Below, one piece after another: positions 8,902 through 24,285 of a stretch of DNA of 34,833 bases. Both the position numbers and the translations under genes were made by a program. The DNA comes from Candidatus Aquidulcis sp. (GTDB lineage: Bacteria > Chloroflexota > Limnocylindria > Limnocylindrales > Limnocylindraceae): contig QWRK01000003.1 in assembly GCA_003670455.1 (NCBI GenBank), positions 1 to 34,833 of the forward strand. The letters run 5' to 3'. A model generated the notes under the pieces. It was not told where the DNA came from. It did not search any database and was given only the letters and a program-made list of their open reading frames with translations. Within the stretch, counting starts at the first letter, position 1; every line of letters begins with the position of its first letter.

Positions 8902-8987
8902 CTAATCCTTACCCCTGCGCTATGTGATAGCGCACCGCTATGGATTACCGATTTTCACTAAGTGGGCGCACACTCGCCTCAGCGGCA

Positions 8988-9009
8988 CGAATCGCTTCGA
9001 TTCGTTTTT
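8988..9009 (+). terminator. Putative intrinsic terminator/attenuator between ABC permease and doxX-like gene
   Basis: CGAATCG-CTT-CGATTCG perfect 7-bp hairpin followed directly by TTTTT. Confidence 0.6.
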
Positions 9010-9047
9010 GGATCGACGATCTAGGCCGAAAGCTGGAGGCAGTACAT

Positions 9048-9599
9048 ATGCGTACGACTGCATCACTTTCCTGGTATCCGAAGGCGGTCGCCATCGGGCG
9101 AATTGTCATCGGCGTCATCTTCCTGTGGGCAGGTCTCGAGAAGGTCATCGGCGGCGCCGGTGAGTGGACCGCGAAGGGATTCCTTGCGTTCGGCACCGGT
9201 GGCACGCTCGGCTGGCCATTCGTGACCGAAGTGGTCGAGGGCACGGTGTTCAACCCCACCCATGATTTCTGGGTTGGGCTCTCTGCCAATGATGGTGTCA
9301 TGAGCGTGATCAATCTTCTGGTGCCGTTCGGGCAGATTGCGATTGGCACCTCGTTGATCCTCGGAATCGCGACGCGTTTCGCCTCTCTGATGGGCTCACT
9401 GATGATGCTCTTCTTCTTCTTCGCCGCATGGGACTTCGCCTACGGCATCGTGAACCAGCACCTCACGTATGCCGTGGTTACGTTCGGGTTGGGCGTGATC
9501 GGAGCGGGGAACTACTACGGTCTTGACGCGGGCCTCGGTGGAAGCCTTCCAGCCGGCATCCGCCGCTGGTTCGCCTCGGGGGATACCGTCGCCGCATAG
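9048..9599 (+). CDS. DoxX/DoxD-like membrane protein
   Basis: 'IGRIVIGVIFLWAGLEKVIGG' and four TM segments; start refined to ATG 9048 with GGAGG SD about 10 nt upstream. Confidence 0.65.
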   Translation: MRTTASLSWYPKAVAIGRIVIGVIFLWAGLEKVIGGAGEWTAKGFLAFGTGGTLGWPFVTEVVEGTVFNPTHDFWVGLSANDGVMSVINLLVPFGQIAIGTSLILGIATRFASLMGSLMMLFFFFAAWDFAYGIVNQHLTYAVVTFGLGVIGAGNYYGLDAGLGGSLPAGIRRWFASGDTVAA

Positions 9600-9622
9600 C
9601 GACCTGGTGTCCTTACAGGCCG

Positions 9623-9666
9623 CGAGGGTCTGGTCGGCGAAAGCTGGCCAGGCCCTCGTTGTTTTT
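9623..9666 (+). terminator. Intrinsic terminator of doxX-like gene
   Basis: CGAGGGTCTGGTC...GGCCAGGCCCTCG 13-bp stem (two wobbles) then TTGTTTTT. Confidence 0.85.
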
Positions 9667-9670
9667 GGGC

Positions 9671-10672
9671 CTAGACCTTGTCGGGGAAGTGACAGGCGAC
9701 CTGGTGGCCTGTTGAGACCTGCACCAGCTGCGGCGATTCCGTGTTGCAGCGCTCCGGATTGCCGAGCTTCTCTTTCAGCCAGCAGCGCGTCTGGAATGCG
9801 CAGCCGCTCGGTGGATTCGATGGCGACGGCACATCGCCCTTCAAGATGATGCGCTTGCGCTTCTTCTCAATCGCAGGGTCAGGGATCGGCACCGCGGAGA
9901 GGAGAGCGATCGAGTACGGATGCACCGGCGAACTGTTCAGTTCTGCCGAAGGTGCAACCTCAACGATCTTCCCCAGATACATCACGGCGGTGCGATCGCT
10001 AATGTGGCGCACCACCGAGAGGTCGTGCGCAATGAAGAGATAGGCGAGCCCAAGACGCTGGCGCAGCTCTGCGAGCAGGTTGAGGATCTGCGCCTGCACG
10101 CTCACGTCGAGCGCACTGACCGGCTCGTCGGCCACCACGAGATCTGGGTTGAGGGCGAGTGCACGTGCCACGCCAATGCGCTGACGCTGCCCGCCAGAGA
10201 ACTCATGGGGATACCGCTCAGCGAAGCGTGGGTCCAGCCCGACCAGTTCGAGGAGCTCAGCAACGCGGCCGGTTCGCTCGGCGCTCGTGCCAACGTTGTA
10301 GATGTCGGCTGGCTCGCGAAGGATCGCGCCAACGGTCATGCGCGGATTCAGCGAGGCGTATGGGTCCTGGAAGATCATCTGCACGCGGCGGCGTAGTTCG
10401 TGCAGCTCACGCCCTTCGGCTGTCGCAAGATTCTGTCCGTCAAAGTCAATCGTTCCAGCGTTCGGCTTTACGACGCGAGTGATCGCGCGCGCCACGGTGC
10501 TCTTGCCGCAACCAGACTCACCAACGAGGCCGAGGATCTCCCCCTTCGCTACCTCAAACGAGACGCCATCCACTGCGCGCACTTCGGCGACGGTGCGCTC
10601 GCGCACCAGCCCTTCACGGATTGGGAATCGAACGGCAAGGTCTTTGACCGTCAGCAGCGGTTCGCGGCTCAT
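9671..10672 (-). CDS. oppF: Oligopeptide/dipeptide ABC transporter ATP-binding protein
   Basis: Walker A '[11 protein letters not shown]', '[15 protein letters not shown]', '[22 protein letters not shown]', C-terminal oligo_HPY-type Cys region. Confidence 0.92.
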
Positions 10673-11736
10673 CGGGTGGCTCCTCCTGTGCGCGGCAGTG
10701 GTCGCCCTTCGGCAACCTCGGCAGGAGCGACTGGATTGAAGCAGGCGGCCACGTGCGTTGCGGTCGGTCCGCTCGTCACGATCGGGCCCGTGCCGCCATC
10801 AATCGGCAACAGGGCAGGTGTCTCGGTGGCGCAGCGATCGGTGCGCCAGGCGCAGCGCGCATAGAACGAACAACCCACTGGCGCATCAACCAGATCGGGT
10901 GGTCGACCTTCGATGGGCACCAGCTTGCCGCCAGTCTCGCCGTCGAGACGTGGAATGGAGCGCAGCAGACCAACGGTGTACGGATGGCGTGGCTTGGCAA
11001 AGAGGTCGTCGGTGGTGCCCGACTCAATCACCGCACCGGCATACATCACGTTGACGCGGTCGGCCATGCCGGCAAGAACGCCGAGATCATGGGTAACGAG
11101 GATCGTTGCCGTGCCGCGCTCCTCGGTGAGGCGGCGGAGCAGGTCAAGCACCTGCGCCTGAATGGTGACGTCGAGCGCGGTAGTTGGCTCGTCGGCGATG
11201 AGCACGCGGGGCTCAAGGGCGAGCGCCATGGCGATCATCACGCGCTGCCGCATGCCGCCCGAGAACTCGTGCGGGTAGCTGCGAAGTCGTGACTCTGGAT
11301 TGGCAACGCCAACGGCGGTGAGGAGCTCAATGGCGCGGGTTCGCGCCGCCTCCTTCGTCACCTCGCGGTGTGCCTGAATCGTTTCGATTAGCTGCTCCTC
11401 AATGCGGAGCACCGGGTTGAGCGAGGTCATCGGGTCTTGGAAGATCATGGCAATCTCGCTGCCACGCACCTGGCGCAGCTCCTCCTCTTTTAGGGTGGTG
11501 AGCTCACGCCCGTCGAGCTTGACGCTCCCGCCCTCCACGCGGCCGGCAGGCTTCGGTAGCAGGCCAACGATCGCAAGATTGGTGACGCTCTTGCCACAGC
11601 CCGACTCGCCCGCCACACCGAGCGTCTCGCCGGCGGCAAGGTCAAACGAGACACCATTCACGGCATGCACCGCACCGTCGTGCGTGCGGAAGCGCACTAC
11701 CAGGTCACGAACCTCGAGAAGGTGCTGGTCGCTCAT
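10669..11736 (-). CDS. oppD: Oligopeptide/dipeptide ABC transporter ATP-binding protein
   Basis: '[14 protein letters not shown]', '[15 protein letters not shown]', '[17 protein letters not shown]'; overlaps oppF by 4 nt. Confidence 0.92.
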
Positions 11737-12617
11737 CGCTTCAACTTCGGGTCAAGCGACTCGCGCAGCCCGTCTCCAAGAAGGTTGAATCCGATCGCCG
11801 AAATGACGATTGCGCCACCGATGAAGATCACAATATGTGGGGCGGCCTGCATGAATCGACGCGCGTCCACGAGCATCGTCCCCCACTCTGGTGTGCGTGG
11901 ATCGGTCGGTCCAAGGCCAAGGAATCCGAGGCCGGCGATGTCAATGATGGCTGTGGCGAGCACCAGCGTCGCCTGCACAATGAGCGGCGTCAGAGCGTTC
12001 GGCAGCATGTGCCGAACCAGAATGCGCAGGCGCGATGCACCAATGGTTCGCGCAGCCACAACGTAGTCGGCCTCGCGGAGCGCCAGCAGTGAGCCGCGCA
12101 GCAGTCGTGCGAACGTTGGTGCGTAACTCACCGCAATTGCCAGTGTTAGCTGTGGCATCCCACGCCCAAGAGCGGTAACGATGCCGATCGCCAGCAAGAT
12201 GCTTGGAATCGAAAGGAAGACGTCAGTCGTACGCATAATCACGCCGTCGACCCGGCCGCCGAATCCGCCCGCGATTGCACCGAGGGCGCCGCCGATAACG
12301 AGCGCAATGGCTACGGCGCCAACCCCAACAAAGAGGCTGATCTGCGCACCGTAGAGAACGCGCGAGAGAATGTCGCGTCCTAGAAGGTCAGTGCCGAATA
12401 GGTGCGTGAGCGACGGCGCATCGAGGCTGCTCCCATTCATGGCGTACGGATCGTATGGCGCAATCAGCGGTGCAAGGATCGCCGCTGAGGCAAAGAGCAC
12501 GATGCAGAAGAGTCCCACCATCGCCGGTCGGTTGCGGCGCAGTCGGCGAGCAGCGTCGCCCCAAAGGCCCCGTTGCGGGCGAGCGAGCTGAGGATCCACC
12601 ATCGCAGCACGCAGCAT
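11733..12617 (-). CDS. oppC: Oligopeptide/dipeptide ABC transporter permease
   Basis: 'HLFGTDLLGRDILSRVLYGAQISL' and C-terminal 'GFNLLGDGLRESLDPKLK' hallmark; start refined to ATG 12617. Confidence 0.92.
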   Translation of the reverse strand: MLRAAMVDPQLARPQRGLWGDAARRLRRNRPAMVGLFCIVLFASAAILAPLIAPYDPYAMNGSSLDAPSLTHLFGTDLLGRDILSRVLYGAQISLFVGVGAVAIALVIGGALGAIAGGFGGRVDGVIMRTTDVFLSIPSILLAIGIVTALGRGMPQLTLAIAVSYAPTFARLLRGSLLALREADYVVAARTIGASRLRILVRHMLPNALTPLIVQATLVLATAIIDIAGLGFLGLGPTDPRTPEWGTMLVDARRFMQAAPHIVIFIGGAIVISAIGFNLLGDGLRESLDPKLKR

Positions 12618-13621
12618 TATTGATACCGAATCTTTGGATTCAACAAGGCATAGCCAATGTCGACGAGCAGGTTGACGACAAGGAAGATGAGGGCAAAGAT
12701 GAGGATCGTGGACTGCACGATCGGGTAGTCTCGGTTCTGGATCGCATCCACAACCCATCGGCCAACGCCGTTCCAGACAAATACGGTTTCGGTCAGCACA
12801 GCGCCGCCAAGGAGTGCGCCCGCCTGAAGTCCAACGACAGTGGTGACGGGCAGCCACGCATTCCGCATGATGTGCCGGTTATCAACCGTCTGCTCCTTGA
12901 GGCCCTTTGAACGCGCAGTTCGGACGTAGTCCTCGTTCACTACCTCAATCACCGAGGCACGCGTGATGCGGGTAATGATCGCGAGTGGAATTGAGCCGAG
13001 GGCAATTGAAGGAAGAATCAGGTGACGAACAACATCTACAAATAGATCAAGGCGGCCGGCGAAGAGGGTATCAATCAGCAGCAGCCCTGAAGTGGCATCA
13101 AAGCGAGCGCGAGCATCAATACGCCCTTGCGTTGGCAGCCATTCGAGAATGACGCCGAAGATTGCAACGAGCGCGAGGCCAAGAACGAAGACGGGGATGC
13201 TCACCCCGAAGAGGCTGACGCCTGTGATCAGGCCGTCAATCCGACCGCCCGCTTTTCGTGCGGCGAGCCGGCCGAGAGGAACTCCGACACCGAGGGCGAA
13301 GATGAGTGCGCCAATCGTCAGCTCCACCGTTCCAGGGAAGCGCGTGAGGAACTCAGCCAAGAAGGGCTGGGAGTTGACGACGCTCGCGCCAAGATCACCC
13401 GAAAGGGTGTTCATCAGGTAGCGGATGTACTGCTCCCAGAGCGGAAGATCAAGGCCAAGGTTCTCTCGGAGGGCTGCGCACGCCTCAGGGGTGCGGTGTT
13501 GCCCAAGGATGGCAACGCATGGATCGCCGGGGAGGATGCGGATGTAGGCGAAGAGCAGAATTGAGAGCCCGATCAACACGGGAATTGCGGCGATCAAGCG
13601 GCGAACGATGTATCTCCCCAT
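12617..13621 (-). CDS. oppB: Oligopeptide/dipeptide ABC transporter permease
   Basis: 'YIVRRLIAAIPVLIGLSILLFAYIRILPGDP' N-terminus, 'RTARSKGLKE' EAA-type loop; TAATG overlap with oppC. Confidence 0.92.
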   Translation of the reverse strand: MGRYIVRRLIAAIPVLIGLSILLFAYIRILPGDPCVAILGQHRTPEACAALRENLGLDLPLWEQYIRYLMNTLSGDLGASVVNSQPFLAEFLTRFPGTVELTIGALIFALGVGVPLGRLAARKAGGRIDGLITGVSLFGVSIPVFVLGLALVAIFGVILEWLPTQGRIDARARFDATSGLLLIDTLFAGRLDLFVDVVRHLILPSIALGSIPLAIITRITRASVIEVVNEDYVRTARSKGLKEQTVDNRHIMRNAWLPVTTVVGLQAGALLGGAVLTETVFVWNGVGRWVVDAIQNRDYPIVQSTILIFALIFLVVNLLVDIGYALLNPKIRYQ

Positions 13622-13740
13622 GCGGGTCAGTCTAGGGGTGAAACGCCGTCGCCGCCCCCTCAGCCTCACGGCCAAGGGAGCGGCGACAGATGCTCTCGTT
13701 AGAGCGAGTAGCGCACCGCCTTACGCGGCACGCACCTCAG

Positions 13741-15375
13741 TTACGGTCGGTCGAGCCAGACCAGGTTGAGCGGCTCGTTCAACGCTGCAGAGCCGATGAA
13801 GCCCTTCAGGTCGATCGTGGCAGCTGCCTGCGGCTTCGAGTTGGCAACCGGCACTGTTGGCATGTCAGCGCGGATCAAATCCTGCGCCGTCTCCCACAGG
13901 GCCTTCGCCTCTGCCTCGGTGCCCGCTGCAAGCGCGTCGTTCATCGCCTTGTCGAGGGCATCGTTCTTGTATGCGAACTCCTTTGAAGGGGCGCCGTTCT
14001 TATAACCGAAGAACGCCGTCTTCAAGAAGTTGTCCGGGCCGGCCCAGTCGCCGGTCCAGCCAAGGAGCCACATCTCGTACTTACCCTGGTTCTCGTCATC
14101 CAGGTAGCCTTCGCGCCAACCATCGCTGTTTGGGTTGATCGTGAAGCCGACTGCCTCGAGGTTCGCCGTGATCGCTTCGAACAAGCCCTTTGGATCAGGC
14201 ATGTACGGGCGGGACACGTCGTTTGGATACCAGAAGTCAATCGTGAGGTCGGTTTCACCCGACTCTGCGATCAACTGCTTCGCCTTCTCGACGTCATAGC
14301 CTGGAAGATTGAGGTCCTTCGCGTATGCAACGCCAGCTGGCATCCAGTTCGTTGCTCGCACCGCTGCGCCGGCATAGAAGGTCTTGATCAGGAAGTCGTA
14401 ATCGATCGCGTAGGCAATTGCCTCGCGGATCTTTGGATTGCTGATCGGTGCGTATGTGTGGTTCATCGAGATCTGGAACGTATTGAACGAGGAACCTCGG
14501 TCAATCAGCTGCAGGTCCTTGTTTGCAGTAATCTCTGCAATCGTTGCAGGAGCGATCGTCTGCGCAAGGTCGATCTCGCCCGTTGCAAGACCGTTCACGC
14601 GCTGAGCCTCTTCGGCAACTGCCTTAAAGACAATTGCGTCAAGGTAGGCGACCTTCTCCTTGTTCCAATATTCTGCGTTCTTCTCAACTTCAACGCTATC
14701 GCCAACTACCCACTTCACGAACTTGAAGGGGCCGGTGCCGACCATTGCGCCTGCGCCACCAGTGGCGGCAGTGATCTTGGTCACATCAGCCTCGGTGTTG
14801 TCAGCCTTACCAAGAACCAGCGCCGTTGGCGACTGGATGGCAAAGACCTGAAGCGTCTGGGTCAACAGGAAGTTCGAGCTCGCCTTGCGCAGCTTGATGG
14901 CGACCGTGAGGTCGTCGATCTTCGTTGCGGACTCAAGGTTGCTCTCGCTGCCATAGCCACCGAAGATGTCGCCGATATAGAAGGCGTAGTCTCGGAGCTC
15001 GGTTGGTAGCCCAATGAAGCGCTCATAGTTGAATACGACTGCATCCGCATTGAAGTCGGTGCCGTCGTGGAACTTGACGCCGCTGCGCAGCTTGAACGTA
15101 TAGGTGAGGCCGTCGGCGCTCATCTCATAGCTCTCTGCGAGCACTGGAACGACCTTTGAGGTCGAGCCTGGCTCAAGGCCAACAAGGGTCTCGACGACCT
15201 GCTGGATGACATACGACGTGTTGCTGTCGTCCATCAACGCAGCGTCGGTTCGTACGATGTCGCCTGGTAGGGCAACGATGAGGGTTCCTCCGGCCTTGCC
15301 GACTGGGGTGCTCGAGCACGCCGCGGCGACCATGAGGAGGGCGCCAAGAATGGCACCGATCCGTAGGTTCTTCAT
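13741..15375 (-). CDS. oppA: Oligopeptide/dipeptide ABC transporter substrate-binding lipoprotein (SBP family 5)
   Basis: Lipobox 'LLMVAAACSS', 'YTFKLRSGVKFHDGTDFNADAVVFNYER'; start refined to ATG 15375 with AAAGGAG SD. Confidence 0.92.
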   Translation of the reverse strand: MKNLRIGAILGALLMVAAACSSTPVGKAGGTLIVALPGDIVRTDAALMDDSNTSYVIQQVVETLVGLEPGSTSKVVPVLAESYEMSADGLTYTFKLRSGVKFHDGTDFNADAVVFNYERFIGLPTELRDYAFYIGDIFGGYGSESNLESATKIDDLTVAIKLRKASSNFLLTQTLQVFAIQSPTALVLGKADNTEADVTKITAATGGAGAMVGTGPFKFVKWVVGDSVEVEKNAEYWNKEKVAYLDAIVFKAVAEEAQRVNGLATGEIDLAQTIAPATIAEITANKDLQLIDRGSSFNTFQISMNHTYAPISNPKIREAIAYAIDYDFLIKTFYAGAAVRATNWMPAGVAYAKDLNLPGYDVEKAKQLIAESGETDLTIDFWYPNDVSRPYMPDPKGLFEAITANLEAVGFTINPNSDGWREGYLDDENQGKYEMWLLGWTGDWAGPDNFLKTAFFGYKNGAPSKEFAYKNDALDKAMNDALAAGTEAEAKALWETAQDLIRADMPTVPVANSKPQAAATIDLKGFIGSAALNEPLNLVWLDRP

Positions 15376-15514
15376 GTGTTCTCCTTTAATGGCGAGTTTG
15401 GCCCGGGCCCCTGGCTCGGCCGACGCGGGGTTTCCGCGATTGCCCCATCCTACCGCAGCGCAAGCACGAATTTGGTTCAGAAAGCGCAACCTCGGGACCG
15501 ATTTCACGCACGAT

Positions 15515-15544
15515 TTGAGCAAATCACACGTGCGCCGCTACCCT
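15515..15544 (+). promoter_or_regulatory. Possible sigma70-like promoter of the heliorhodopsin gene
   Basis: TTGAGC - 18 nt - TACCCT; spacer contains palindrome CACGTG (15527-15532). Confidence 0.35.
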
Positions 15545-15597
15545 CAACGGCATCAGGCTGAAGTCCAGTCTGCAGAATTGAAAAGGGAGGAACCTTC

Positions 15598-16482
15598 ATG
15601 GCAACAGCCAAGAAGTCCGCGCCAAAGCGCGCGGCCGCCGTCAGCACCGGGGTCGCGACAACGTTTGCCGCCATTCCGGCCGCCCGCGCGAAGCAGCTCT
15701 TTAACTGGAACCGGCTCCTTGTGCTCCTGCACGGGATCCAGGCAACCATCATCTGGTGGATCAGCCCAACTGATGCCCTAGTGCGATTCGAGGGGACATA
15801 TCCCGTATCGAAGATCGTCGACGGCCAGTTCGTAGGACTTGATTCGGCGAAGGAGCTGCTCATCAGCTTCCCACTCGCCTATCTCGTTGCTGCCTTCTTT
15901 CTCCTCTCGGCACTGGCGCACTTCCTCGTCGCCTACCCGTTCCGCAAGCGCTACGAGAGTTGGCTCGCTCGCGAGTTCAACCCAATGCGCTGGGCTGAGT
16001 ATGCGTTGAGCTCAACGCTCATGATCGTCGGCATTGCATCGCTGAGCTTCATTACTGATGCTGGCGCACTCATTGCCATTGCGGTCTGCAACGCTTCGAT
16101 GAACCTCTTCGGTTGGTCGATGGAAGAGGCAAACATTGGGCGCAAAAACGTTCAGTGGAGCCACTACATCTTCGGCTGCATCGCCGGCATCGCGCCGTGG
16201 ATTGCGCTGTTCACGACCGTCGGTCTCTCGCTGGCCAACTGGCCAACGGGCATTGGGCCAAATGGCCGCGACCTTGAGGCATTCAAGCCTGTGCTGATTA
16301 CGATCTACGTGAGCCTCTTCATCAGCTTCAACATCTTTGCAGTGAACATGGTGTTGCAGCGCTTGAAGGTTGGAAAGTGGGCTGACTACCTTCACGGTGA
16401 GCGCAGCTACATGATCCTCTCGCTCGTGGCGAAGACGCTTCTTGCGTGGCAGGTTTGGACCGGAGTGTTCATGCCAGCATAG
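15598..16482 (+). CDS. Heliorhodopsin
   Basis: 'LSALAHFLVAYPFRKRYESWLAREFNPMRWAEYALSSTLMI', 'NASMNLFGWSMEE', 'FGCIAGIAPWIAL', 'GKWADYLHGERSYMILSLVAKTLLAWQVWTGVFMP' align by eye with the founding heliorhodopsin 48C12; Schiff-base Lys = K279, counterion Glu = E134, H45/H108 at conserved His sites; SD AGGGAGGA. Confidence 0.95.
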   Translation: MATAKKSAPKRAAAVSTGVATTFAAIPAARAKQLFNWNRLLVLLHGIQATIIWWISPTDALVRFEGTYPVSKIVDGQFVGLDSAKELLISFPLAYLVAAFFLLSALAHFLVAYPFRKRYESWLAREFNPMRWAEYALSSTLMIVGIASLSFITDAGALIAIAVCNASMNLFGWSMEEANIGRKNVQWSHYIFGCIAGIAPWIALFTTVGLSLANWPTGIGPNGRDLEAFKPVLITIYVSLFISFNIFAVNMVLQRLKVGKWADYLHGERSYMILSLVAKTLLAWQVWTGVFMPA

Positions 16483-16506
16483 GGATAGCCCTCTTACGAG
16501 GAACCT

Positions 16507-16543
16507 GGAGACCCTCGCCCACCTGGGCGGGGGTCTCCTTTTT
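16507..16543 (+). terminator. Strong intrinsic terminator of the heliorhodopsin gene
   Basis: GGAGACCCTCGCCC-ACCT-GGGCGGGGGTCTCC (14-bp stem, one T:G) followed by TTTTT. Confidence 0.93.
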
Positions 16544-16569
16544 GTAGCGGTGGGGCGTACTATGCAGCC

Positions 16570-17373
16570 ATGAGTAATGAGCGGGACCCTAGTGACACAA
16601 AGGGGCTGACGTACGCGAGTTACTTGGCGCTTGATGAGTTGCTCGGGCTACAGCGCCCGCGCTCAGACGAGCATGACGAACTGCTCTTCATTACGATTCA
16701 CCAAACCTATGAGCTCTGGTTCAAGCAGATCCTGCATGAGGTCCGAGGTGCCATGAGTGCCCTCGCTGCAAACGAGAGTTGGCGTGCCTCCCACAGGCTC
16801 AGCCGAGTTCGACATATTCTCAAGATTGCCGTCGCGCAAGTAGACATCCTAGAGACGCTCACCCCACTCGAGTTTGCCGCGTTCCGCAGCCGGCTCGCAA
16901 CGTCTAGTGGATTTGAATCCGCCCAGTTCCGCGAGATTGAGGCGCTCTTCGGAATCCGCAACGCGCGTCTCGCCGACCTACTCCCAGATGAGAAGGCTCG
17001 AGAAATCGTGCGCGCCACCTTGCAGGCACCAAGTCTCTGGGACGCAACGATCCACTGGCTGGCGGTTCGCGGGTCTGCGGTCCCAGCGCGACTACTCAGC
17101 CGAGATGTGTCGGCACCGTATGAGGGGGATGAAGATCTGCAAGAGGTGCTGCTTGAGATCTATCGTGCTGGAGGCGAAGCAGCGAGCATTCTCGAGCAGC
17201 TCGTCGATATCGACGAGGGTGTTCAGGAGTGGCGCTATCGACACGTCAAGATGGTGGAGCGAACCATTGGCCGAAAGTCGGGAACGGGTGGCTCTACCGG
17301 TGTGGAATATCTCGCCGCAAGCCTGCGACGTTCGCTCTTCCCAGACCTTTGGGCCATTCGCGACCGAATGTAG
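16570..17373 (+). CDS. kynA: Tryptophan 2,3-dioxygenase
   Basis: 'YASYLALDELLGLQRPRSDEHDELLFITIHQTYELWFKQILHE' and 'VERTIGRKSGTGGSTGVEYLAAS' are hallmark TDO motifs. Confidence 0.95.
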   Translation: MSNERDPSDTKGLTYASYLALDELLGLQRPRSDEHDELLFITIHQTYELWFKQILHEVRGAMSALAANESWRASHRLSRVRHILKIAVAQVDILETLTPLEFAAFRSRLATSSGFESAQFREIEALFGIRNARLADLLPDEKAREIVRATLQAPSLWDATIHWLAVRGSAVPARLLSRDVSAPYEGDEDLQEVLLEIYRAGGEAASILEQLVDIDEGVQEWRYRHVKMVERTIGRKSGTGGSTGVEYLAASLRRSLFPDLWAIRDRM

Positions 17374-17382
17374 TTGGAGCGA

Positions 17383-18618
17383 TCAGGTCACCGTCTGCTT
17401 CGAAGCAAACTCTGGGGCACGCCATGCGTCGGTTCGAAGGATCTCGGCGAACGTCGCTACCGCGCGATCAATGTCGGCAAAGCTCACATAGAGCGGCGAG
17501 AAGCCGAAGCGCAGGATGTTTGGCGTACGGAAATCTCCGATGACTCCGCGGCTGATCAGCGCCTGCATGATCGGATAGCCGCTCTCGTGCGCAAAGGAGG
17601 CCTGTCCGCCGCGTAGCTGGCCCTCCCGTGGTGAGATGAGGGTGAGGCCATAGCCCTTGCACTCCGCCTCAACTCGCTCAATAAAGCGAGAGGTTTGAGC
17701 CATCGACTTGCGGCGAATCTCGGACATTGAGACCCCCTCCCACATCTTCAGAGACTCATCGAGTGCCGCCAGACTGAGCACCTGCTGCGTGCCCGTGATG
17801 AAGCGCCGAATGCCAGGAGCCGGCTCATAGTCGGGCACGAATGCGAACGGGCTCTTATGGCCAAGCCAGCCCTCGAGTGGCTGCCGTACCTGCTCAATCA
17901 GCGCCGGTGCAACCCAGGTGTACGAGGGTGCGCCTGGCCCACCATTGAGATACTTGTATCCGCAGCCGATCGCAAAGTCGGCGCCGTCGCGAGCGATATC
18001 AAGCTCAAGGACTCCAGTGGAGTGCGAGAGATCCCACACCGTCAGCGCACCAGCAGCGTGGGCCGTGGCACTCAGTTCGCGCATGTCACGGATCCGTCCG
18101 GTTCGATAATCCACGTGCGTCAACATCAAGACCCCTGCCCCATCAAGCACCGTCTCCGGGCTGACTGACTCGTTCCAGAAGCGCACCTCCACATTGGGGA
18201 GTAGTTGGCGTAGGCCCTCCAAGATGTACAAATCGGTTGGGAAGTTCTCGCGCTCAGTGACAACAACCTGCCGGTCGCCGCGTAGGCGCAACGCGGCGGC
18301 CAGCACGCGGAAGAGCGAGACGGACGTAGATTCACCAACTACCACCTCTCCCTTGCCGACACCGAGAAGTGGGGCGATCCGATCGCCAACGCTAAGTGGC
18401 AGGTTGTACCAATCAGACTCGTTCCAACTGCGGATGAGCCGCTCGCCCCACTGCCGGTCAATCACGTTGGCGACGCGCTCATGCACACCGATAGGCAGCG
18501 CCCCCAGAGAATTCCCATCGAGGTAGACGACTTCTGCCGGCAGGTTGAACCGCTCTCGCAGCGCAGCGAGAGGGTCCTGCGCGTCGAGCTCTGCTGCTGA
18601 AGGGGTGGGCTGCGTCAT
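17383..18618 (-). CDS. kynU: Kynureninase
   Basis: 'VYLDGNSLGALP', 'VVGESTSVSLFRVLAAALRLR', 'ADFAIGCGYKYLNGGPGAPSYTWV' (PLP Lys), 'RRFITGTQQVLSLAALD'. Confidence 0.95.
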   Translation of the reverse strand: MTQPTPSAAELDAQDPLAALRERFNLPAEVVYLDGNSLGALPIGVHERVANVIDRQWGERLIRSWNESDWYNLPLSVGDRIAPLLGVGKGEVVVGESTSVSLFRVLAAALRLRGDRQVVVTERENFPTDLYILEGLRQLLPNVEVRFWNESVSPETVLDGAGVLMLTHVDYRTGRIRDMRELSATAHAAGALTVWDLSHSTGVLELDIARDGADFAIGCGYKYLNGGPGAPSYTWVAPALIEQVRQPLEGWLGHKSPFAFVPDYEPAPGIRRFITGTQQVLSLAALDESLKMWEGVSMSEIRRKSMAQTSRFIERVEAECKGYGLTLISPREGQLRGGQASFAHESGYPIMQALISRGVIGDFRTPNILRFGFSPLYVSFADIDRAVATFAEILRTDAWRAPEFASKQTVT

Positions 18619-18630
18619 GCGTCTATCGTC

Positions 18631-19497
18631 TCACGTACCTGAGAGCTGCAACAACGCACGCGCATCTCGTAGTAGGGAGCCTCCCGGCGTATCAAGCTCT
18701 TCAAGCACATCGAAGTGATCGCGGCCAGGAACAGTCGCAAGCGAAACGGTGGCGTGGCTCGCCCACTTCTCGCGGAGGAGTTCTGACTGCCGGTGGAACT
18801 CCGATGGCTCATGTTCGCCGATCCGCAGAAGCACCGGAATGCTGCGATGTGGCACGTAATTGACAGGTGAGAGTCGCTTCGCCTCATCGGCACTCATGCC
18901 CACCAGGTTGTTGACGTAGCTCTCGGCGATTGGCTCAAGGTCAAATGCACCACCAATGAGCAGCAGCCCTGAAATCGCACTCCGTACCTTGGGCGGCGCC
19001 AGTTCGGTGACCAGCGTCGCGGCAAGATGCGCCCCCGCAGAGTGCCCGCCCACAACGATCCTGCTCGCGTCGCAACCGAGCTTCGTGGCGTGTTCAATTA
19101 AATGGGTCACCGCAGACGATGCTTCCGCGACAATCTCTGAGAGGGTGGCGGCTGGCGCTAGGGAATATCCAACGGCAACATGAGTTGCGCCGAGCGGGGC
19201 GAGCGTCGCTGCGTAGCGACCGCCATCATCAATCGAGCCCTCCTGCCACCACCCACCGTGAAACATCAGCAGCGCGGGGTGGGCTCCTTCACGATCCGCA
19301 AAGATCTCGAGGCGGTTGGCCTCACGCGGCCCGTAGGAGACGCGGTGATAGATGCCACTCGCCTGTGCGGTGCTCCGTGCAAGCGTGGTGCGCTCACGAC
19401 CGGCTGACATGGAACCAGCGGCGTCTCGCGCGGTGCGGCTTGGGGAGTACTCCGCATCGAGCCAGGCTCGCCGCTGGGGATCAGGGAACGAACTCAA
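18631..19497 (-). CDS. kynB: Alpha/beta hydrolase, kynurenine formamidase (arylformamidase)-like
   Basis: 'HGGWWQEGS' HGGxW, 'GGHSAGAHLAA' nucleophile elbow; 12 nt upstream of kynU in the same direction; TTG start. Symbol by function: esterase-type rather than classical metal-dependent KynB. Confidence 0.7.
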   Translation of the reverse strand: MSSFPDPQRRAWLDAEYSPSRTARDAAGSMSAGRERTTLARSTAQASGIYHRVSYGPREANRLEIFADREGAHPALLMFHGGWWQEGSIDDGGRYAATLAPLGATHVAVGYSLAPAATLSEIVAEASSAVTHLIEHATKLGCDASRIVVGGHSAGAHLAATLVTELAPPKVRSAISGLLLIGGAFDLEPIAESYVNNLVGMSADEAKRLSPVNYVPHRSIPVLLRIGEHEPSEFHRQSELLREKWASHATVSLATVPGRDHFDVLEELDTPGGSLLRDARALLQLSGT

Positions 19498-19593
19498 TCG
19501 GCCTCGGCGGCAACGAATTGGATAAGGGCCTCAGCTTCAATGATTTCACTGATTGCGAGACCTGACACGGCGCGCCGTCCCTAACCAGCTGAC

Positions 19594-20199
19594 TTAGATG
19601 AAGTACAGCAGCGCGAAGAGCAGAATCCAGACCACGTCAACAAAGTGCCAATAGATCGACGATGCCTCAACCATGTCGTGGTGCTCTGCCGAGAACTGGC
19701 CGAGGCTACCGCGGTAGAGGCAGACCGCCAACATCAGCACGCCGCCAAGCACGTGTGCGCCGTGGAATCCGGTGAGCACATAGAAGGTGCTGCCGAAGAC
19801 GCCATCAGAGATGCCGAAGCCGATCTGTGTGTAGTCGTACACCTGGCCGATAAGGAAGATCACGCCGAGAAGTACGGTCATTGCCAACGCGCGATTCATT
19901 CCCTGTCGGTCGCCTTTGCGAATGCGCCACACCGCAAACTGGCAGGTAACGGAACTCAGCACGAGCAGGGCCGTCATGATTCCTGGGAAGAGCGCCTCGC
20001 TGTGCAGTTCAAAGGCGGGGTTTCCTTCAGGTGGCCAGACCCCTGTTGCCGTTCGCAAACTGAAATATGCAGCGAAGAGTCCGGCAAAGAACATGATCTC
20101 CGAGACGATGAAGAGAAGCATCCCGAGTACTGGGTTGCCGAGCCCCTTCTTGCCGTGTGCGGCGCCGTGGCCGCTCGTTGCTACTGCGCCGTCGCTCAT
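19594..20199 (-). CDS. coxC: Cytochrome c oxidase subunit III
   Basis: 'MLLFIVSEIMFFAGLFAAYF', 'TGFHGAHVLGGVLMLAV', 'YWHFVDVVWILLFALLY'. Confidence 0.95.
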   Translation of the reverse strand: MSDGAVATSGHGAAHGKKGLGNPVLGMLLFIVSEIMFFAGLFAAYFSLRTATGVWPPEGNPAFELHSEALFPGIMTALLVLSSVTCQFAVWRIRKGDRQGMNRALAMTVLLGVIFLIGQVYDYTQIGFGISDGVFGSTFYVLTGFHGAHVLGGVLMLAVCLYRGSLGQFSAEHHDMVEASSIYWHFVDVVWILLFALLYFI

Positions 20200-21821
20200 C
20201 CGTGATCCTTCTCGGAGCGAGCATGTCGAGCATCAAAGAGTGGGCGCTCTGAGGTGATTGGCGGCAGCTTGTCGAAGTTCCACGCCGGTGGCGGGGATGA
20301 GGTTGCCCACTCCAGGGTATTCGCCTCCCACGGATCGTCGCCCGCAAGCTTCCCGTTGCGCAGGCTGATGTACACGTTCCAGAAGAGTGGCAGCAACGAG
20401 ATGCCGACCAAGATGCCACCGATCGTGGCGGCGAGGTTGAGGTCGTTCCAGCCAGCCGTTGGGGAGTAGTCGGCGATGCGACGTGGCATGCCGGCAAGGC
20501 CGAGCGCATGCATTGGAAGGAAGGTCAGGTTCAGGCCAACCATCATGAGCACGAAGTGCACGCGCCCGAGACCCTCATCGAGCATGCGCCCCGACATCTT
20601 CGGGAAGTAGAAGTAGAACCCAGCCATGATCGCAACGAATGAGCCGCCGAAGAGCACATAGTGAATGTGCGCAACGATCCAATAGGTGGCGTGGATGGCG
20701 TAGTCGACCGGGACCGAAGCGCTGAAGACGCCATTGATGCCGCCGATCAGGAACATGCTGAGGAAGCCCAGCGCGAAGAGCATTGGCGTGGTGAAGCTGA
20801 TCTGACCGCGCCACATGGTCGCGATCCAGTTGAACATCTTCACCCCAGTTGGCACGGCGATCAGGAAGGTCATCACTGAGAAGAAGGGCAGGAAGACGCT
20901 CCCCGTCGTGAACATGTGGTGCGCCCAAACGCTGAATCCGAGTGCGCCGATACCGGCGGTGGCGAAGACGAACGCCTTGTAGCCGAAGAGCGGCTTGCGA
21001 CTAAAGACTGGGATGATCTCGGAGATCACACCCATCCCCGGCAGCACCATGATGTACACCGCTGGATGCGAGTAGAACCAGAAGATGTTCTGCCAGAGAA
21101 TCGCCGAGCCACCGAGCGTCGGATCGAAGAATGCCCCGCCGAAGTTTCGGTCGATGAAGAGCATCACCAGGGCGCTGGTCAGTACCGGTGTGCCCATGAG
21201 TACGAGCACGCTCGTCACAAGAACGGTCCAGACAAGGATTGGCATGCGGAAGAGAGTCATACCTGGTGCGCGCATGCGGAAGACCGTGACCATGAAGTTG
21301 ACGGCGCCAAGGATGGAGCTGGTGCCGACGAGGATGACGGCGACGATCCAGAGATTCATTCCCGGCCCTGGGCTGTATTTGATGTTGCTCACTGGTGGAT
21401 ACGCGGTCCAGCCGGCGTCTGCGGCGCCGCCGAGGAGGAATCCTGAAGCCGCAACGAGCCCAGAGAACGGAACCATCCAGAAGCTGAGCGCATTGATGCG
21501 CGGGAAGGCCATGTCTGGCGCGCCAATCATGAGCGGCACCACGTAGTTGCCGATCGCCGCAAGGAACGGAATGATCACCCAGAAGATCATGATCGAGGCG
21601 TGCATCGTGAAGAGCTGGTTGTACGAAGACTCGTCGAGGAACTGCAGCCCTGGCATCGCGAGCTCAGCGCGAACGCCGAGCGCCAAGAGGCCACCGATCG
21701 CCAAGAAGATGAAGGACGAGATCGTATAGAGGATGCCGATCTTCTTATGGTCAGTTGTCGTTAGGTAGTCATAGAGTGCCGACGGAGCCGACTTCTGTGC
21801 CACTGCTGAGTTCGTTGCCAT
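20196..21821 (-). CDS. coxA: Cytochrome c oxidase subunit I, A2-type
   Basis: 'FWFYSHPAVYIMVLPGMGVISEIIPVFSRKPLFGY', 'WAHHMFTTG'; ATGA overlap with coxC. Confidence 0.95.
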   Translation of the reverse strand: MATNSAVAQKSAPSALYDYLTTTDHKKIGILYTISSFIFLAIGGLLALGVRAELAMPGLQFLDESSYNQLFTMHASIMIFWVIIPFLAAIGNYVVPLMIGAPDMAFPRINALSFWMVPFSGLVAASGFLLGGAADAGWTAYPPVSNIKYSPGPGMNLWIVAVILVGTSSILGAVNFMVTVFRMRAPGMTLFRMPILVWTVLVTSVLVLMGTPVLTSALVMLFIDRNFGGAFFDPTLGGSAILWQNIFWFYSHPAVYIMVLPGMGVISEIIPVFSRKPLFGYKAFVFATAGIGALGFSVWAHHMFTTGSVFLPFFSVMTFLIAVPTGVKMFNWIATMWRGQISFTTPMLFALGFLSMFLIGGINGVFSASVPVDYAIHATYWIVAHIHYVLFGGSFVAIMAGFYFYFPKMSGRMLDEGLGRVHFVLMMVGLNLTFLPMHALGLAGMPRRIADYSPTAGWNDLNLAATIGGILVGISLLPLFWNVYISLRNGKLAGDDPWEANTLEWATSSPPPAWNFDKLPPITSERPLFDARHARSEKDHG

Positions 21822-21833
21822 CTTCTCTCCCCC

Positions 21834-22919
21834 TTACGGCTGCGCTACGACGACGAGATCTGCGTACATGCCCTGTGCGTAATGACCTGCGATGTTGCAC
21901 ATCACGACATAGTTGCCTGGCTCAAGGGTAACGGTGACCATGCCTGGAGTACCTGGCTGCCACTCAGCCTGCTCGTCAATCACGTCGAGTGTCGCCTCGT
22001 CGAGGCGGCTCGTCGCCGAGTCCACAAGGTCAACCAGTTGCTTCCCTGTCTTGTCGCTGCGGACTACGAGGAACTCGTGCGCGATGCTTCCAGCGTTCGT
22101 CAGGTTGAATTCGATAGAGCCTGCGACATGCTTGGCGGCGGAAATCGTGATCCCCCACTCCTTCACCGTTCCCGTCATTGGGCCGGTGGCGGCTGCCTCC
22201 TCCTTCGGGCGGGTCGCCTCAATCCATGCGTCGTACTCTTCGCGAGTTACCACGCGCACCGTGAAGCCCATCTGGTGGTGCAACAGTCCACAGAATGCCG
22301 AGCACTGGCCGGTAAAGGTGCCGAGCTTGTTCGGCGTGAACTCGAAGTAGTTGGTCTTGCCCGGCACCATGTCGCGCTGGAAGAGGAACTGCGGAATGTA
22401 GAAGCCGTGGTTCACATCTTGGGCGACCAGGGTGATTTCGATGCGCTCATTGATCGGCACGACCATCTCTGGGTAGGCCGTAGCGGCACCGAAGATCTCG
22501 ATCTTCTCGGCTGGATAGGCGAACTTCCACTGCCACTGGTAGCCGACCACCTCGATCTTGACCCCAACGTTCTCCGGCTCTCGGGCATCAACAATGTTGA
22601 GCACGCGAGCCGAGGCGAAGAAGAGGGCGATGACGACAATGAGGGGGATCACCGTCCAGATGATTTCTAGGATGAGATTGCCGTGGGTCTGAACTGGGAG
22701 GGTGGAGTCACTTGGCTTGCGGCGGTAGCGGATGACCGACCAGATAATGAGACCCTGGACCAGCAAGAACACGACGGCGGCGACGGCGAAGACGAGGTCG
22801 TAAAGAGCCCGAACCTCCAGCGCCTGCTCGGTAACCGCAGGCAGGGGGAAGGCGGACTCGCAGCCACCCGCAATGAGGGCAACGGCGCCCAGCCCCAGCA
22901 GCAGAGAGAGTTTCTTCAT
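21834..22919 (-). CDS. coxB: Cytochrome c oxidase subunit II (CuA) with fused C-terminal cupredoxin domain
   Basis: CuA motif 'CSAFCGLLHHQM'; lipobox 'LIAGGCES'; extra C-terminal domain with 'AHEFLV' and 'CNIAGHYAQGM'; start refined to ATG 22919. Confidence 0.93.
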   Translation of the reverse strand: MKKLSLLLGLGAVALIAGGCESAFPLPAVTEQALEVRALYDLVFAVAAVVFLLVQGLIIWSVIRYRRKPSDSTLPVQTHGNLILEIIWTVIPLIVVIALFFASARVLNIVDAREPENVGVKIEVVGYQWQWKFAYPAEKIEIFGAATAYPEMVVPINERIEITLVAQDVNHGFYIPQFLFQRDMVPGKTNYFEFTPNKLGTFTGQCSAFCGLLHHQMGFTVRVVTREEYDAWIEATRPKEEAAATGPMTGTVKEWGITISAAKHVAGSIEFNLTNAGSIAHEFLVVRSDKTGKQLVDLVDSATSRLDEATLDVIDEQAEWQPGTPGMVTVTLEPGNYVVMCNIAGHYAQGMYADLVVVAQP

Positions 22920-22992
22920 GGTTGAGATGATACGCGCCCTCGGCGGGAGGCGCTCCGCCGCTATCCCGAGTGCGCCGGTCGGATTCCTGAGG

Positions 22993-24285
22993 TCAGCGCT
23001 CCGTGTGGGCAGGCTGGGCGTGCACCCGTGCGATGCCAGAGGTGAGGAGCGGGAGGGGCCCGAGAATGATCCCAGCGGCGCCAACGAACAGGGTGGCGCG
23101 GAGCCCAAAGTTCTCTGCGATCACTGAGCCAATGAGGGCTCCCAGGGGAAGGCCGAGCAGCATGACGGTCTTCATGGAGGCGTTCATGCGCCCGAGCAGT
23201 CGAGCTGGCGTAATGAGCTGTCGATACGTCACCTGATTCACGTGGAAGAGCCCCGCTCCGAAGAAGGCGATGAACTGCGTAAGGATGGCGAGTGCGGCAA
23301 TCAGCGGCACACCCATGGAGCGATCGAGCAGGGCAAATCCGAGCGGCATCACCGGCAAGATGAATCCGCCAAGAATGAGCGTACGTCCCATGCCGAGCCA
23401 CTTGACCACCTTGGCGTTGATGATCGTGCCCACAACGATGCCGACCGTCCCTGCGCCAATGACAAACCCGATTAGTTCAGTCGGTAGCGCGAGCTCACGT
23501 CGCGCGTAGGCGATGAGCAGCGGCCCACTCGCCAGTCCACCAAAGAAGTTGAAGATGAGGGCGGCGAGCGCATTGCCGCGAAGGTGCGGATGTTGCACGA
23601 CCCACGCGAGCCCTTCGCGCATCTCTCTCCAGAGACTTCGCTCCTCCACCTCCTGTTCGGTAAAGGTGGGAACTTCTTCAACATGGCGCACGCGTTGCAC
23701 CATCAGTGCCGAGACAAGGAAGCTGAACGCATCCACAACTAGGGCGATCGGGCCACTAAGGCGCGCCACGGCGATGCCCGCAAGCGCCGGGCCCGCAACA
23801 CCGGTTGCCGACTCCATTGCCATGAGGCGTCCGTTCGCGACGCCGAGCTGCGGTCCACGCAACAGTGCTGGGAGGTACGACTGATGTGCCACGTCGTACA
23901 GGAGAGTGCATGCACCAACAAGGAAGAGCACCGCAAGGAGGAGCGGCATGCTCAACGCGCCAAAGGCGAACGCGATCGGCACGACTAAGAGGAGTCCCGT
24001 TCGTGCAAAGTCTGTCGCAATCAACACGGGGCGACGGGTGCGCCGATCAAGCAGGGCTCCAGCCGGAAGGCCGAGTAGAACAAATGGAAGCAAGAAGGCG
24101 AGTTCTAGCAGCGCGATTGATCCGTTACTTGCTTGAATGACGTCAATGGCGATCAGGGGGAAGGCGATGTGTGAAACCTGCGAGCCGAGTGAGCTGATCC
24201 CCTGCGCGCCGAAGAGGAGGCGTACGTCGGCGTTCTGGAACGGATCGTCGACGGCGAGGCGAAGGCGCGCAAAGGGGTTTCTCAT
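22993..24285 (-). CDS. MFS transporter (enterobactin-exporter/EntS-like superfamily group)
   Basis: 12-TM ORF, 'LFGAQGISSLGSQVSHIAFPLIAI', 'LPAGALLDRRTRRPVLIATD'; start refined to ATG 24285. Confidence 0.85.
   Translation of the reverse strand: MRNPFARLRLAVDDPFQNADVRLLFGAQGISSLGSQVSHIAFPLIAIDVIQASNGSIALLELAFLLPFVLLGLPAGALLDRRTRRPVLIATDFARTGLLLVVPIAFAFGALSMPLLLAVLFLVGACTLLYDVAHQSYLPALLRGPQLGVANGRLMAMESATGVAGPALAGIAVARLSGPIALVVDAFSFLVSALMVQRVRHVEEVPTFTEQEVEERSLWREMREGLAWVVQHPHLRGNALAALIFNFFGGLASGPLLIAYARRELALPTELIGFVIGAGTVGIVVGTIINAKVVKWLGMGRTLILGGFILPVMPLGFALLDRSMGVPLIAALAILTQFIAFFGAGLFHVNQVTYRQLITPARLLGRMNASMKTVMLLGLPLGALIGSVIAENFGLRATLFVGAAGIILGPLPLLTSGIARVHAQPAHTER

Follow-up and report, generated by a model that had tools for sequence, protein, structure and literature searches.

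Positions 15598 to 16482 of the window, by which we mean the whole 34,833-nt stretch of DNA that was analysed, encode what is by sequence a genuine full-length heliorhodopsin, carried on a transcription unit that appears to be its own. The gene is kept almost throughout its genus while the genes on either side of it come and go, and the known retinal-forming enzymes were not found in the same genomes. The reading that we lean towards is that the protein senses light by means of retinal which the cell scavenges, and that it works in trans on a partner encoded elsewhere.

The features on which the argument rests are, within the window:

13741–15375, minus strand: divergent neighbour, an oligopeptide-type ABC substrate-binding lipoprotein, likely start 15375, outside the unit
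15539–15544, plus strand: TACCCT, a putative −10-like element (TAnnnT), kept or nearly so in the upstream regions of the genus
15554–15572, plus strand: 7-bp hairpin CAGGCTG-AAGTC-CAGTCTG in the presumed 5′ leader, arms varying by clade with the pairing kept
15585–15590, plus strand: Shine-Dalgarno sequence GGGAGG, 7 nt 5′ of the ATG
15598–16482, plus strand: heliorhodopsin coding sequence of 294 aa, from ATG at 15598 to TAG at 16482, assigned by profiles, alignments and a predicted model
15598–15702, plus strand: predicted cytoplasmic N-terminal tail of 35 residues, Ala/Lys/Arg-rich, net charge +6, with low model confidence at its start
16507–16543, plus strand: predicted intrinsic terminator, a 14-bp stem followed by T5
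16570–17373, plus strand: downstream neighbour, a member of the tryptophan 2,3-dioxygenase family, past the terminator and outside the unit

Identity and topology of the protein

The ORF scores above the cut-off both for the Pfam family PF18761 (239.3 versus 26.7 bits, E = 5.1e-71) and for the NCBIfam heliorhodopsin equivalog NF038020 (231.6 versus 100 bits). PF18761 was the only Pfam family matched at E ≤ 1, and the type-1 rhodopsin family PF01036 (Bac_rhodopsin) gave no match at that threshold. A sequence search of solved structures likewise returned only heliorhodopsins (6is6, 7clj, 9ljj, 6su3, 6uh3 and 9vfc). The profile search that the sequence-only reading had proposed thus confirms the family it named, without a rival, and the gene coordinates it gave are exact.

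The same reading had picked out a glutamate counterion, a Schiff-base lysine and two conserved histidines, and each of these holds when the protein is aligned with solved heliorhodopsins. Counting residues in HMMER alignments, H45, H108, E134, S275 and K279 are equivalent to H23, H80, E107, S237 and K241 of 48C12, and all five are invariant in an alignment of 29 homologues, in which identity to prokaryotic heliorhodopsins outside the genus is 36–59%. Specifically, the Schiff-base Lys279 lies in TM7 within the SxxxK motif S275–K279, and the Glu134 counterion in TM3 is accompanied by the His45/His108 pair.

An AlphaFold model built from the homologue alignment (mean pLDDT 88.4) has seven long helices and a beta-hairpin at residues 61–92, and it is disordered at the beginning of the N-terminus. 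Among solved structures 6is6 matches it best, with a TM score of 0.93 normalised by the target, whereas type-1 rhodopsin structures match far more weakly and mostly at 6–15% identity. The net loop charge is +11 for the segments expected inside and −3 for those expected outside, and because these charges fit an inverted topology the N-terminus is predicted to lie inside, in agreement with homology and with the model. The structure prediction that had been suggested as a check on the TM7 lysine and the inside N-terminus therefore comes out in favour of both. A basic N-terminal tail of similar make-up is found in all complete homologues from the genus.

The protein shares with TaHeR of a Thermoplasmatales archaeon (the 6is6 structure) its fold, Schiff-base lysine, glutamate counterion, conserved histidine and cytoplasmic GKWxxYLxGE segment, but the two are only 37% identical, and the window protein differs in its 35-residue basic tail and in an extracellular EF loop that is longer. 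The comparison with 48C12 (6su3, 6uh3) is similar, with all five key residues matched at 36–40% identity, but with the EF loop and the N-terminal tail again longer in the window protein. The window gene adds a further member to a family that is already well described, and the protein itself is not the main interest.

Transcription unit and leader hairpin

Several features support the view that the gene forms its own, monocistronic unit. The strong Shine-Dalgarno sequence remarked on earlier is of a type conserved in the genus, with GGGAGG or GGAGG 5′ of the start in nearly all of the 13 genus loci compared. The terminator had also been seen before. Terminator-like sites are no more numerous in the region than expected by chance, but the hairpin of this one is much more stable than its shuffles (z = −4.75), and a comparable stem, read by eye, follows the gene in all 13 loci. 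Upstream, the divergent lipoprotein gene is the first of an Opp cluster (9671–15375) and lies ~222 bp from the heliorhodopsin. A sigma-70 consensus scan upstream of the heliorhodopsin gave no promoter; the conserved TAnnnT element is a candidate −10 box.

Between this element and the Shine-Dalgarno sequence, both in the window and in the upstream regions of L031–L045, sits the leader hairpin, for which the arm variants by clade are CAGGCTG/CAGCCTG, CGGGCCG/TGGCCCG, CCGCTC/GGGCGG and CGGACCG/CGGACCG. Over ten distinct sequences pairing is kept in 92.9% of cells and five of the seven pairs have changed on both sides, a count that is inflated by choosing the 19-mers by hand to align the arms. None of 500 shuffles reaches the observed pairing, and most members do not fold significantly when each sequence is taken singly. 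A similar stem also stands 5′ of some of the type-1 rhodopsin genes in the genus (L121, L122, L137), so the hairpin may belong to leaders in general or serve as a DNA operator.

Host, descent and retention of the locus

The window is a contig (C23) of a 0.87-Mb MAG that is 67% complete, and the host is Limnocylindrus/Aquidulcis (Chloroflexota), a small-genome lake bacterium that has a light-driven pump, the type-1 rhodopsin, as well; its phylum has been argued to be monoderm (PMC6169038). In a tree of 87 heliorhodopsins the window gene falls in a supported Limnocylindrus clade, inside a Chloroflexota group with genomes of the same order, and the simplest reading of this placement is therefore long-term vertical descent within the order. 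The other Limnocylindrales heliorhodopsins group with it in the tree but are patchy, occurring in 15 of 42 genomes of the sister family as against 18 of 19 in the genus. That Chloroflexota carry heliorhodopsins is in itself well established (PMC8612252, PMC11109279). The description of the genus Limnocylindrus reports xanthorhodopsin-like genes and does not contain the word heliorhodopsin (PMC6169038), and no paper among those listed in our literature search mentions heliorhodopsin together with Limnocylindr-, Aquidulcis or SL56.

The single genus genome that lacks the gene (G004) also lacks COX3 of the same locus, and for this reason we reject a loss of the heliorhodopsin there and consider that the region is probably unassembled. 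Elsewhere in the genus the usual order is the Opp substrate-binding protein (−), heliorhodopsin (+), tryptophan dioxygenase (+), kynureninase (−), ABH (−) and COX3/1/2 (−), from which individual genomes depart on either side. In L036 and L021 the dioxygenase, kynureninase and ABH genes are gone and the heliorhodopsin directly adjoins COX3; L031 and L026 lack the Opp cluster as well, which leaves DoxX-heliorhodopsin-COX3; and in L037, L040 and L042 the Opp position holds only a distant substrate-binding homologue (~29%). Because the heliorhodopsin stays when either or both of the flanking gene sets are absent, the oligopeptide transporter, tryptophan dioxygenase and kynureninase are weak clues to its function. 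The earlier expectation that function would have to be read from context thus leads only a little way. Beyond the genus, two Chloroflexota loci (L050, L055) have an SDR-type gene directly upstream of the heliorhodopsin, and in L055 a glutamine synthetase gene is convergent with it; these neighbour classes match those given in PMC11109279.

A comparison of window positions 8940–23108 with L031, L036, L041 and L043 gives the picture of a recombination mosaic. At fourfold sites L036 and the window are ~93–97% identical in DoxX and COX1 but only 45–60% in OppB, the substrate-binding protein, heliorhodopsin and COX3, and since the divergence is raised in OppB, the substrate-binding protein and COX3 too, the mosaic would span the whole segment, and an allele exchange specific to the heliorhodopsin is rejected. 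The database title of L036 (CAMAXG010000024.1), Thermoflexus hugenholtzii JAD2, looks wrong, as the sequence is of Limnocylindrus type with COX1 99% identical to that of the window. Two heliorhodopsin types, 84% identical, occupy the same locus, with fixed differences mostly in or near extracellular loops. In genome G012 (L022, L135) the type-1 rhodopsin equals that of the window's genome over 242 residues while the heliorhodopsin is only 85% identical, which reflects either a transfer or a mixed bin.

Retinal supply and possible function

No retinal-synthesis gene occurs among the scanned ORFs of the window, as had been noted, and the absence extends well beyond it. The genome-wide search for blh/brp that had been suggested found no Blh/Brp (PF15461) in the 19 genomes of the genus or in 126 genomes of the order, and none above the cut-off in 400 Chloroflexota genomes, where one match fell below it; the same search does find the Blh-family gene of IMCC26103. 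RPE65-type oxygenases were also absent from the 19 genus genomes, with positive controls detected. Rhodopsins occur in several Chloroflexota lineages (PMC6169038), and within the genus 18 of 19 genomes have a type-1 rhodopsin and 17 of 19 a phytoene synthase, which in the window's genome is adjoined by a CrtI-family desaturase. Since the retinal enzymes are absent across 19 incomplete MAGs, missing contigs are an unlikely cause, and the simplest reading is that retinal is exogenous and scavenged. The combination of two retinal proteins and carotenoid genes without a known retinal-forming oxygenase does leave room for synthesis by an unrecognised enzyme, rather than solely by uptake from other plankton, but we regard this as unlikely.

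Two other ORFs near the type-1 rhodopsin deserve comment. A fused membrane protein of the window's genome (L116, 11385–13070, plus strand) has a C-terminal UbiA-type prenyltransferase part, with NF009608 just above the cut-off, and a weak lycopene cyclase domain match N-terminal to it, which may point to C50 carotenoids. An ORF upstream of the type-1 rhodopsin that matches no Pfam family was considered as a retinal enzyme and rejected, as it reads as a spurious Arg/Ala-rich frame.

For the protein itself we infer the following course of events. Retinal, scavenged from the surroundings or made by a route not yet recognised, would bind at Lys279, with Glu134 as counterion and the N-terminus inside. 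Light would isomerise the retinal and start a slow photocycle in which the cytoplasmic face is altered, so that the heliorhodopsin could switch, depending on light, a partner in the cytoplasm or membrane whose gene lies elsewhere in the genome and is not one of the adjacent ones. Other heliorhodopsins are known to regulate glutamine synthetase (PMC9529153), photolyase (PMC9769723) and an ABC transporter (PMC11109279). Glutamine synthetase and photolyase, each present in 14 of 19 genus genomes and on other contigs in the window's genome, are candidate partners in trans. What speaks against a partner in trans is that the published glutamine synthetase and ABC transporter partners were found via shared operons, and none is shared here. 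A point of comparison is AbHeR, the glutamine synthetase-binding heliorhodopsin of Actinobacteria bacterium IMCC26103 (PMC9529153): it belongs to the same family and also has a host with a small genome, but it lies in an operon with glutamine synthetase, whereas the window gene is apparently monocistronic with glutamine synthetase on another contig, and its genome has a Blh-family gene while the window's genus has none that we found. Loop conservation was considered as a sign of a cytoplasmic partner and dropped. Identity is 0.897 in the ICL and 0.699 in the ECL of the heliorhodopsin, but 0.868 and 0.668 in the type-1 rhodopsin of the same genomes, and because the differences are practically the same (0.198 and 0.201) the asymmetry is not specific evidence for a partner.

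The nearest gene cluster offers a different partner, the divergent oligopeptide ABC transporter, which the heliorhodopsin might modulate in response to light. The cluster starts 222 bp away on the opposite strand, and an Ornithinimicrobium heliorhodopsin does act on a multidrug ABC exporter (PMC11109279), but the transporter here is an importer of a different type that is not co-transcribed with the heliorhodopsin, and both the locus without the cluster (L031) and the three with only the distant substrate-binding homologue make such a link improbable. A tie to tryptophan/kynurenine breakdown, for example by light-stress sensing that tunes the pathway, would fit with the dioxygenase and kynureninase genes directly downstream in most genus genomes; the strong terminator in between, and the retention of the heliorhodopsin in L031 and L036 without the dioxygenase, kynureninase and ABH genes, make it very improbable indeed.

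The remaining alternatives concern what the protein does rather than what it acts on. The viral heliorhodopsin V2HeR3 moves protons in light (PMC9448325), but a light-driven ion transporter of this kind is hard to credit here, as the sequence groups with ordinary prokaryotic heliorhodopsins and a separate type-1 rhodopsin is already present in nearly all of the genomes. The same co-occurrence, together with the failure to find Blh and RPE65 in the genus, could instead suggest that the heliorhodopsin mainly serves the type-1 rhodopsin of a cell unable to make retinal, by binding or delivering retinal or by helping in energy transfer. However, the two genes lie on different contigs (C23 and C12) and covalent binding of retinal is poorly suited to storage, so that we hold this to be quite improbable. 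We know of no published case of a heliorhodopsin as a retinal store or helper for a type-1 rhodopsin.

For most lineages the function of heliorhodopsins is unsettled, and this genus offers a clean genetic case: small genomes, a single heliorhodopsin in each cell, usually alongside a single type-1 rhodopsin, and no operon partner. The natural absence of either flank weakens the usual gene-neighbourhood argument for the heliorhodopsin, and trans-acting partners and the supply of retinal become the main questions. The interest of the gene thus lies in its genetic setting, the source of its retinal and the covarying leader hairpin.
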